Of a stretch of DNA of 64,000 nt, positions 23,973 to 31,461 are shown piece by piece; within the stretch, counting starts at the first letter, position 1; each line of letters opens with the position of its first letter. The notes below the pieces were generated by a model. That model saw only the letters and a list, made by a program, of their open reading frames with translations. It made no database searches and was not told the DNA's origin. A program made the position numbers and the translations under genes. The DNA is from Mesotoga sp. BH458_6_3_2_1 (lineage in GTDB: Bacteria > Thermotogota > Thermotogae > Petrotogales > Kosmotogaceae), in the NCBI RefSeq assembly GCF_003664995.1, contig NZ_JFHL01000026.1:1-64000 (forward strand), written 5' to 3'.

Positions 23973-24077
23973 GACGCAAGGCGCCGGAATGCATCGGCGG
24001 ACGCAAGGCTGGGAAGAACATCCCAGGTCGCAATGCTGGCAAAGATCGCGCCAGGATGCAATGCCCGCTTCGCTGGG
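23973..24077. repeat. Tandem hairpin array A (four units)
   Basis: Units start at 23973, 24000, 24027 and 24055 (27-28 bp period). Each begins with an 8-nt tag (GACGCAAG, GACGCAAG, GTCGCAAT, GATGCAAT) and continues into a short inverted repeat whose sequence differs per unit: CGCCG/CGGCG, CTGGGA/TCCCAG, CTGGC/GCCAG, and a weak CCC/GGG pair. Stems change while pairing is kept. It lies 40 bp after the UgpE-like gene. Confidence 0.75.
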
Positions 24078-24799
24078 AAAGAACCGATTTCGCTTAGGAG
24101 AATACTCTGTCTGTTTTGAAGAGCATTTTCATGATGCAAGTTGTATGAATAACCGGGGTTACGGGTAGCAGGCTTGGAATTGGAAGGAGCATAGGAACTG
24201 GTTGGCCGTTGAGCGGTTCTTCGTTCTCCGAATAAAAAACCAGTTGTTCGTTCCAGAGCGAAGATCAGTTCTTCGTTCTTGGTTGGAGCCAATGAAGCAA
24301 TAGCATCCAGATTCCGACCAGGAGCTTTGTCGGAATGACGGAATCTGGCCTTTTTGCAACAACCATTAGTTGTCATACCGCCTGCCTTGTTCTGTTTATG
24401 TCATCCCGCCCGAACTTGTTTCGGGATCTTGGTGTTGATTTTATGCAAGGATGGGTCCATGATCTGGGGCTGGATACGAGGCCCGTTTTTCACAGCGAGC
24501 AGCGGGTTTTTGCTCTTAAACGTAAAGAGGATCCTAGGATCTAGATGCTGAAACAAGTTCAGCATGACGGAATCCCTGACGAAGAACCAAGAAGAGGATT
24601 ATGTGGGTAATAATGAGCCTTGGAGAAGGTGCCGACTACTCTGCCGTAGATGGGGTGTGTCTCACCGGGTCTTCTCGGAGGACGGTGGACCGATAACGGA
24701 TAACCATTATCAAATCTAGACTTCTAATGATCAACTCGAGCAGCCCGTTTTGTCTTCTTCATCTCGGCGCTATTCATACACAATTTGTAAGGTAAAAAG
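24078..24799. other. Repeat-rich intergenic island
   Basis: No gene is supported here. It contains hairpin elements of the GTCAT...ATCT family at 24311-24336 (ATTCCGAC/GTCGGAAT), 24400-24428 (CCCGAA/TTCGGG) and 24545-24565 (ATGCTGAA/TTCAGCAT), preceded by blocks shared with the islands at 30960-31130, 31477-31535 and 38610-38790. ORFs on either strand in this island are repeat translations. Confidence 0.65.
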
Positions 24800-24884: not shown

Positions 24885-24911
24885 TACTCCTGCCGTGTTC
24901 TGGCAGGAGTA
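24885..24911 (+). promoter_or_regulatory. Ten-pair hairpin in the 5' leader of the oligopeptide operon
   Basis: TACTCCTGCC (24885-24894) pairs perfectly with GGCAGGAGTA (24902-24911) around a seven-base loop. It lies between the predicted promoter and the ribosome site. There is no following T-tract, so it is more likely an mRNA-stabilising or regulatory leader structure than a terminator. Confidence 0.6.
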
Positions 24912-29565: not shown

Positions 29566-30537
29566 ATGTCGCAGACAATACTTGAAGTCAAGAACCTTAA
29601 GAAGTACTTCAACATATCCAAGGGACAGCTCCTGAAAGCCGTGGACAACATAAGCTTCTCGATCGATCGCGGGAAGATACTGGGAATGGTAGGGGAATCC
29701 GGCTGCGGGAAGACCACCGTGGGAAGGACAATTGTCCACCTATACAGTCCCGACGAAGGTGAAGTCTTATTCAACGGGAGTAACATTCACGAATTGAACA
29801 ACAAGAAGTACAGACAGATAACGAAAAAGATTCAGATGATTTTTCAAGACCCTTACGCTTCTCTTGATCCAAGAAAGACCGTTAGCGCGATAGTAGGGGA
29901 AGGAATTGACATTCACAAACTCTGCAGAAACAAGACAGAACGGATGGAGAGAATCTACGAAATGCTAGAAATGGTCGGTTTAAACAGGGAGCATGCGAAC
30001 CGCTTTCCACACGAATTCAGCGGCGGGCAGCGTCAGCGTATAGGAATCGCACGGGCACTTGCTGTCGGGCCGGAGTTTCTGGTCTGTGACGAAGCGATCT
30101 CTGCACTGGATGTCTCGATACAGGCACAGATAATAAACCTCCTGATCGATCTCCAGAAGCGGTTGAACCTGACTTATCTCTTCATTGCACATGATCTTAG
30201 CATGATCAGATATATTTCCGACGACACGATCGTTATGTACCTTGGCACTCTCGTCGAAAAATCCGAGACCGAAGAGCTCTTCGAGAATCCTTTGCATCCA
30301 TACACTATCGGCTTGCTAGAAGCCGTTCCGATAGCAGATCCCGATTATGAAAAGAGCCACAAACACGATTTACTCTCAGGAGAAGTCCCGAGTCCGATCA
30401 ATCCCGCACCCGGTTGCCGCTTCTCCTCAAGGTGCAAATTTGCGAAGGAGATCTGCAGGAAAGAAACACCTGTTTTGAAAGATGCCGGCGATGGTCACAT
30501 GGTGGCCTGTCATATGGTTCATAGTGAGGAATGGTAG
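29566..30537 (+). CDS. Oligopeptide ABC ATPase 2 (DppF/OppF family)
   Basis: The 323-residue ATPase shows Walker A GESGCGKTT, FQDPYASLDPR, signature SGGQRQRIGIARAL, Walker B FLVCDEAISALD, IAHDLS, and the C-terminal extension GCRFSSRCKFAKEIC with the same cysteine spacing as its partner. An acidic-to-alanine change in the DEP motif (DEAIS) is common in this subfamily. It is the last gene of the operon; tandem hairpin array B begins 40 bases after its stop. Confidence 0.92.
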   Translation: MSQTILEVKNLKKYFNISKGQLLKAVDNISFSIDRGKILGMVGESGCGKTTVGRTIVHLYSPDEGEVLFNGSNIHELNNKKYRQITKKIQMIFQDPYASLDPRKTVSAIVGEGIDIHKLCRNKTERMERIYEMLEMVGLNREHANRFPHEFSGGQRQRIGIARALAVGPEFLVCDEAISALDVSIQAQIINLLIDLQKRLNLTYLFIAHDLSMIRYISDDTIVMYLGTLVEKSETEELFENPLHPYTIGLLEAVPIADPDYEKSHKHDLLSGEVPSPINPAPGCRFSSRCKFAKEICRKETPVLKDAGDGHMVACHMVHSEEW

Positions 30538-30576
30538 AACCGTGGTTGGGGGTCGGAGTTGGTGGCATCAAGATCA

Positions 30577-30676
30577 GAAGTGATGCTGCCTCCGGCAGGA
30601 AGTGAGGCTCGCTGGCGCGAGGAAGTGATGCCCGGGAGGAGCATCCGGGGAAGTGATGCTGGCACTTACGCACCAG
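30577..30676. repeat. Tandem hairpin array B (four units)
   Basis: Units start at 30577, 30599, 30622 and 30650. Each opens with the tag GAAGTGATGC (unit 2 reads GAAGTGAGGC), then a small stem that differs each time: CTGCC/GGCAG, CTCGC/GCGAG, CCCGG/CCGGG and CTGG/CCAG, and closes on GA, which begins the next tag. Tag conserved, stems covarying. Placement relative to the operon end matches array A. Confidence 0.8.
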
Positions 30677-31210
30677 GAGGCAAAAACCAAAGAAAAAGAG
30701 CAAGCAAATTGAAGTAATCAGATAAGGACGAACTTACTCTGTCATCCTGAAATGCTCCTATTCAGGATCTGGGATTTTCTAAGAACCGTGGTCGGGGGTA
30801 GCGGGTTGGTGGTAGGAAAGAGCAAAGGAACTGGTCCATCGTTGAACGGTTAGCCGTTCGCCGAAAAGAACAGTTGTAAGTTCCAAGATATGAGTTGTAA
30901 AAAAGGCCGGGGTCGGAGGTTGGTGGTTGGAGGTTCGTAAGAGCAAAAGAAACTGGCTGATGACCGCTGAGCGGTTCTCCGTTCTCCGAATAAAAAACCA
31001 GTTGTTCGTTCCAGAGCGAGGATCTTTTCTTTGTTCTTGGTTGAAGCCGTGAAGCACTAGCATCGAGATTCCGACCAGGAGCTTTGTCGGAATGACGGAA
31101 TTGGGCGTTTTCGGAATAACCGTTCTTGGTCAGACCCATTTATTCAGAGAGTAGAGAGAAGGGAAAAGCAAAGAGAACAGGTAAGGATCTTGGATATCGA
31201 AGAGCCTTTA

Positions 31211-31272
31211 AGAGCTCTCTAATCCCCTCTCGAGAGGGGTGGCGACGGCTCCATCGTCGACGGGGTGTGTGC
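31211..31272. repeat. Double-hairpin repeat element
   Basis: CCCCTCT/AGAGGGG around CGAG is followed by TGG and a second stem CGACG/CGTCG, then ACGGGGTGTG. The same two-stem plan with other sequences occurs at 38983-39027 and, inverted, at 39208-39248. Confidence 0.65.
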
Positions 31273-31276
31273 ACAC

Positions 31277-31461
31277 CAAGAACGGACCACGTTCAGAATG
31301 ATTAAATTGGGAGTGCCTCGGATATGGTGAAAAAACGATTTGGTCTGCAGTCATCCCGGACTTGACCCAGGATCTGGTTCCAACAAGGAACAACGAAGGG
31401 AACCATTCTTCTCAGCGGAGGACGGTGGACTGTTGACGGGTAACGCGGTTTTTATCAGCGA
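31277..31461. repeat. 185-bp intergenic repeat, copy 1
   Basis: Matches 39256-39440 over its whole length with about four mismatches counted by eye. It includes the element GTCATCCCGGACTTGACCC, which forms an imperfect hairpin ending in AGGATCT. Confidence 0.8.

Follow-up and report, generated by a model that had tools for sequence, protein, structure and literature searches.

Several described repeat systems resemble, in one respect or another, the array that is the subject of this study. The GTAG and CGTC REPs (Di Nocera et al. 2013, PMC3733652) are short intergenic palindromes that carry an unpaired tag at one end, reach high copy number and form several stem families per genome. Those of the CGTC type have a CGTC end tag and an 8-9 bp stem with A-T pairs at its first positions, and are found mostly as head-head dimers; a head-to-tail arrangement of REPs is called absent or negligible (PMC3733652). 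The BIMEs and REPINs of E. coli and Pseudomonas (Bertels and Rainey 2011, PMC3116915) are mosaics made of palindromes plus short constant linkers; their hairpins display compensatory changes, and ordered tandem clusters occur in some genomes. The Neisserial intergenic mosaics with palindromic repeats are mentioned alongside REPs (PMC3733652). Lastly, CRISPR arrays alternate a constant repeat of about 21-48 nt with unique spacers. The Neisserial mosaics are large composite intergenic repeats with palindromic modules, which is also true of the Mesotoga elements described here, but they consist of different repeats, without the 10-nt tag and exchangeable stems of the Mesotoga family.

The array was recognized in a window of 64,000 nucleotides of Mesotoga sp. 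BH458_6_3_2_1 (contig NZ_JFHL01000026.1, positions 1 to 64,000). In being short, palindromic, extragenic and present in many copies, its units agree with the REP superfamily in general, and they share with the GTAG and CGTC REPs the features listed above. Unlike these, they possess a 10-nt tag (GAMGYRAKGC) and stems of 4-7 bp closed by C-G, as against the 8-9 bp of CGTC REPs, and they are joined head to tail in a single orientation within an array. The sequence at the hairpin foot is GATGC, GAGGC, CAATGC or CAAGGC and not the GTAG or GTGG of GTAG REPs; in a second version of the tag, GACGCAAKGC, the complement of CGTC is present as GACG, although no hairpin of the CGTC-REP type stands there. 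The resemblance to BIMEs and REPINs lies in the mosaic of palindromes and constant linkers; however, those elements are inverted pairs of a conserved REP, with palindromes in alternating orientation, whereas the Mesotoga arrays are composed of unlike single hairpins behind one tag, and a cognate RAYT is not tied to them. The original prediction had also set the locus apart from CRISPR, and rightly so: a constant repeat does alternate with variable segments, but it is only 10 nt long, and what varies between the repeats is a set of recurring hairpins, 10-18 nt in length, dispersed over the genome. A literature search, with most subscription papers outside its scope, returned no description of the tag-hairpin family, and the motif is absent from the available portion of a 2025 survey that predicts 1,814 palindromes in M. 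prima. An architecture of micro-hairpins joined head to tail, each behind a constant 10-nt tag and with stems that can be exchanged, does not seem to have been described before.

Anatomy of the arrays in the window

The array begins 39 nt past the stop of a gene for an oligopeptide ABC transporter ATPase, on the coding strand of that gene (Table 1). The window sequence at 30577-30676 can be read as four tandem units of 22, 23, 28 and 27 nt, and the predicted anatomy is borne out: each unit starts with the 10-nt tag, which has one base changed in unit 2, and continues into a paired stem that differs from those of the other units. With at most one mismatch allowed, the window contains GAAGTGATGC 11 times where 4.75 copies are expected, a count of 11 is not reached in any of 100 shuffles, and TRF scores part of the array. 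The stem of unit 1 opens 16 of 81 arrays, and the hairpin of unit 2 is among the most frequent modules of the family. Unit 3 is a 28-nt form of a 27-nt class, the members of which have a single loop type (about AAGARCAT) and differing stems; the covariance model R1 matches it at 30622-30659 (E 3.1e-8). Comparison with copies elsewhere identifies unit 4 as a decayed version, with two inner pairs gone, of CTGGCGC-TTAC-GCGCCAG, which is the usual closing module of arrays.

Table 1. Features of the array region and of a second array (window coordinates)
Feature	Position	Strand	Description
Oligopeptide ABC transporter ATPase gene	29566..30537	+	323 aa, ABC_tran/oligo_HPY; upstream neighbour, context only
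Composite intergenic repeat	30538..31340		encloses the window array; own-genome matches
Unit 1	30577..30598	+	tag GAAGTGATGC, hairpin CTGCC-TCC-GGCAG
Unit 2	30599..30621	+	variant tag GAAGTGAGGC, hairpin CTCGC-TGGC-GCGAG
Unit 3	30622..30649	+	tag GAAGTGATGC, hairpin CCCGG-GAGGAGCAT-CCGGG
Unit 4	30650..30676	+	tag GAAGTGATGC then CTGGCACTTACGCACCAG, stem CTGG/CCAG
Truncated tag	30677..30681	+	GAGGC; array end in most copies
Second array, like kind	23973..24077	+	tags GACGCAAGGC/GTCGCAATGC/GATGCAATGC; stems CGCCG/CGGCG, CTGGG/CCCAG, CTGGC/GCCAG; then short GC-rich hairpin

The second array, probably the 'array A' of the original prediction, lies in the spacer ahead of the gene at 24895 and has the loop type of the first. 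Hairpins identical to those behind the first tag are also preceded by the second tag, and both tags fit GAMGYRAKGC letter by letter; a third tag, GGCCAGT, precedes some of the hairpins of the family. The set of recurring hairpins is limited: besides the 27-nt class, it comprises TGCnnnGCA, TGCC-TCC-GGCA, TCGC-TGGC-GCGA, CGAC-TTC-GTCG and TGGCGC-TTAC-GCGCCA. Two further readings of the tag were dropped, namely pairing of the loop CAT with the tag ATG, by eye on an alignment in which tag variants with AGG retain CAT, and 'GAAGTGATG' as a ribosome-binding site plus ATG, since many tags read AGG.

Parts of the composite repeat that encloses the array match their own genome 87 times, and it shares an 88% identical stretch with G000:C23:492-1077. 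Short-word blocks (GGTCGGAGGTTGGTGG, CAAGTTGTGAGTTG and CGTTGAATGGTTCTCCGTTC) build this and other large intergenic regions, including many spacers of the genomes G000 and G003, and vary by species. Two other repeats were observed in the window. The sequence ATTCCGACCAGGAGCTTTGTCGGAATGACGG, at 31068-31099 and 24310-24341, seems to be the CGTC-type REP already on record for M. prima, in which CGTC-3 REPs are listed (PMC3733652), and is an element different from the tag-hairpin units. A 144-bp tandem repeat (3.1 copies, 89% matches) at 20-467 falls within an open reading frame.

Stem pairing and stem types

Among 64 distinct 27-nt units from two genomes, 298 of 320 stem cells pair, whereas exchange of arms between units gives a mean of 221 and a maximum of 247. 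Across 141 distinct 37-mers from four genomes, nine paired arm types occupy one loop context (CCGG, GCCG, ACTG, TGGG, TGGC, CCAG, GGCG, CGGG and TGAC), and the arm pair is broken in 34 units, mostly by one-sided changes. An alignment of 63 rows, comprising both tag types and one loop type, was picked to cover the arm types with at most two rows per type, a choice that raises diversity without affecting pairing; in it, 92.4% of cells are paired versus 64.5% after shuffling, both sides have changed in 77 cells versus 22.8 in shuffles, and the covariation score is 0.625 versus 0.126 in shuffles and no more than 0.146 in slid controls.

These sequence comparisons support a conserved tag followed by stems that stay paired as their sequence changes. 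The covariation claimed in the original prediction is upheld, with the qualification that stem changes lie mainly between about nine discrete types, which can be module exchange, whereas those within a type are usually one-sided decay. Because the covariation rests on few stem types, it reflects few independent compensatory events, and compensatory change can also be imitated by the exchange of entire hairpins.

Variation among array copies

Homologous copies of arrays differ by the gain or loss of exact whole units, each a tag together with its hairpin, the indels being 18, 19, 22 and 22 nt long. The two 22-nt gaps correspond to CGACTTCGTCGG+GAAGTGATGC and GGCTCGCTGCGCGAG+GAAGTGA, the 19-nt gap to AGGCTCCGCCT+GGCCAGTC and the 18-nt gap to TGCTGACGCA+GGCCAGTC; two related arrays likewise differ by one 27-nt unit. 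Some copies change from one flank to another precisely at the tag. The architecture of the window array recurs in 14 copies that have long flanks in common, and whole arrays therefore travel inside larger composite repeats. The order of hairpins is partly fixed, with TGCCTCC placed first and TGGCGC last. Neighbouring units hardly ever carry the same hairpin: this is so in 1 of 211 pairs versus about 21 expected under two nulls, and in 1 of 167 versus 13.6 expected with a single count for each of 77 architectures.

Abundance and distribution

The exact tag occurs 190 times in the 3.23-Mb genome to which the window belongs, versus 7 times for the reversed control, and the covariance model R1, the construction of which had been proposed at the outset, recovers 128, 109 and 126 units in three genomes. 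The array is accordingly neither unique to its locus nor, with covariation well above shuffles, devoid of structure signal, findings that together would have spoken against the original prediction. The proposed search of related Thermotogota, in which a pair of tags at tandem spacing counted as an array, was positive for 7 of 10 Mesotoga genomes (all except G001, G004 and G005) and negative for all 93 of the other Thermotogota covered. In a collection of 84,980 species, true arrays were present, among the matches listed, only in Mesotoga, one Kosmotogaceae MAG and one contig labelled Bacteroidales. The latter (L205, JALHHH010000130.1) bears a typical Mesotoga array and is probably a mis-binned Mesotoga contig. 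Simple tandem repeats, coding repeats or chance account for those tandem tag matches beyond the Thermotogota that were inspected among the matches listed (from Wallbacteria, Streptomyces, Planctomycetes and others), and no true array was found in the viral contigs scanned.

In sampled stretches of four genomes, which were picked mostly around arrays, 684 of 720 tags lie outside open reading frames of at least 180 aa and 36 inside them. The coding fraction of array-rich islands goes down to 0.45-0.6. Between 1.80 and 1.93 Mb of G003:C1, array loci with like sequences recur ~76 kb apart (1822/1898, 1835/1911 and 1839/1915 kb), pointing to a large duplication. The arrays also show regional strand coherence, which a REP- or BIME-like interpretation leaves unexplained. 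A single-strand mobile element of the IS200/IS605 kind would be expected to show an orientation bias with respect to replication. By a hand count in G003, with dnaA at 1.1 kb and ter assumed to be opposite, 26 of 35 array loci run with the leading strand, the two arms being uneven (18/21 versus 8/14) and the loci partly duplicated; GC skew is too weak for calling a replication strand bias.

Origin and maintenance of the arrays

We consider it fairly probable that the window array is one copy of a Mesotoga-specific, REP/BIME-like family of intergenic DNA repeats, the hairpin modules of which are exchanged at the tags; of the three roles initially suggested for the locus, that of a mobile mini-repeat fits best. 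The exchanged unit would be a hairpin of 4-7 bp with the GAMGYRAKGC tag that precedes it, joined head to tail to its neighbours. The hairpin may be kept as a DNA structure, either on a single strand or as a cruciform, and the tag could act as a junction for the exchange or deletion of units, by template switching or slippage between the 10-nt repeats or through a single-strand DNA endonuclease. As perfect tandem duplications, equal neighbours would collapse and leave arrays of unlike hairpins as the only ones to persist, which could explain why equal neighbours are missing. The family is probably non-autonomous and made up of selfish or nearly neutral DNA, selfish spread and weak host benefit being inseparable at the level of sequence.

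An alternative places the function of the hairpins in transcripts, where they would stabilise 3' ends, terminate transcription in part or form ladders for protein binding; the original prediction had indeed raised a modular structure at the 3' end of the opp operon. The persistence of stem pairing would agree with such a role, as would the place of the window array behind the operon on its coding strand; furthermore, in 74 arrays the folds of the strand opposite the tag beat shuffles on average (mean z -2.43, against -1.63 for the tag strand). However, spacers with at least two tags in the sampled stretches of the four genomes (38 tandem, 23 divergent and 19 convergent) match the expectation for no preference, and in the tandem ones 17 arrays run along the genes and 21 opposite to them, the genes having been called by ORF length alone; the lack of bias to gene 3' ends or gene direction argues against a directional RNA role. 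The RNA of the window array folds with z -1.39 on the tag strand and -2.55 on the other, the minimum free energy structure of the sense RNA lacks the four hairpins, and the mean pair probability of the expected local hairpins in the 74 arrays is 0.42 on the tag strand and 0.63 on the other. The GC-rich hairpin and T tract of an intrinsic terminator do not occur together, there being no T tract, and Rfam 15 gives no match up to E 5 at 30200-31400. Moreover, three other Mesotoga genomes with opp homologues have no tandem arrays. With no direction bias, no terminator and unremarkable RNA folding, the 3'-end role is left unsupported, and an RNA element appears decidedly unlikely. We also regard as unlikely, if less so, that the arrays are passive debris, left as recombination multiplied a single ancient composite repeat whose hairpins survived by chance and gene conversion rather than by structural selection. 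The 14 copies with long common flanks, the make-up of the intergenic regions as composites of repeats and the commonness of one-sided stem changes could all arise in that manner, but it would hardly yield nine matched-arm stem types in one loop context with pairing far above shuffles, identical stems behind two different tags, or 77 architectures in which equal neighbours are avoided.

Two enzymes are candidates for acting on the repeats, as leads only: a Y1 transposase and a TOTE-type primase-helicase. A RAYT-like Y1 gene is present in five of ten genomes (G000, G001, G004, G006 and G007) and absent from G002, G003, G005, G008 and G009. That the units are REPs proper, mobilised in trans by this resident Y1 (HUH) transposase through cutting at the tag 5' of the hairpin foot, is in our estimate unlikely. 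Genes of the expected kind, coding for 250-340 aa, do reside in the array-bearing G000, G006 and G007, hairpins with the third tag are located 58-523 bp downstream on the same strand at three of the four Y1 loci examined in array-bearing genomes (L033, L031 and L032), and Y1 subclasses with atypical REPs that lack GTAG are known (PMC6006769). Yet the phyletic profile of the enzyme shows no correlation with the arrays: G002 and the complete, array-rich G003 do not have it, whereas the array-less G001 and G004 do; neither GTAG nor GTGG is found at the hairpin foot, and, apart from one 678 bp upstream in G000, no GAAGTGATGC units flank the Y1 gene. The second enzyme, a TOTE-type AEP primase-helicase (PF22548), is encoded within the densest array island (L010:3957-6227 in G000:C8), and its gene, found in G000, G003, G006, G007 and G032, is absent from the array-less Mesotoga genomes G001, G004 and G005, a phyletic pattern in partial agreement with that of the arrays. 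Arrays start 0-150 bp downstream of the gene, on its strand, in G000, G003, G006 and G007, which would suit a conflict system whose arrays are made or used by the primase-helicase among them; but G002 has arrays without the gene and G033 the gene without arrays, and hitch-hiking may account for the proximity, given that these four orthologous loci are situated in array-dense islands. Such a system strikes us as most improbable. Very unlikely, too, is a micro-cassette system in which a single-strand DNA enzyme, be it a Y1/HUH transposase or the TOTE primase-helicase, would cut out single units of 20-28 nt, hairpin and tag together, and put them back at tags, with integron-like shuffling into ordered arrays and equal neighbours forbidden.

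Implications

The REPs of Thermotogota are poorly known, and the Mesotoga family adds a palindromic repeat architecture to this phylum. In this family, selection on the pairing of hairpins is recorded by nature separately from their sequence, and the avoidance of equal neighbours is testable as slippage instability. With array-bearing and array-less species in one genus, comparisons within it can address which enzyme is responsible for making or moving palindromic repeats.
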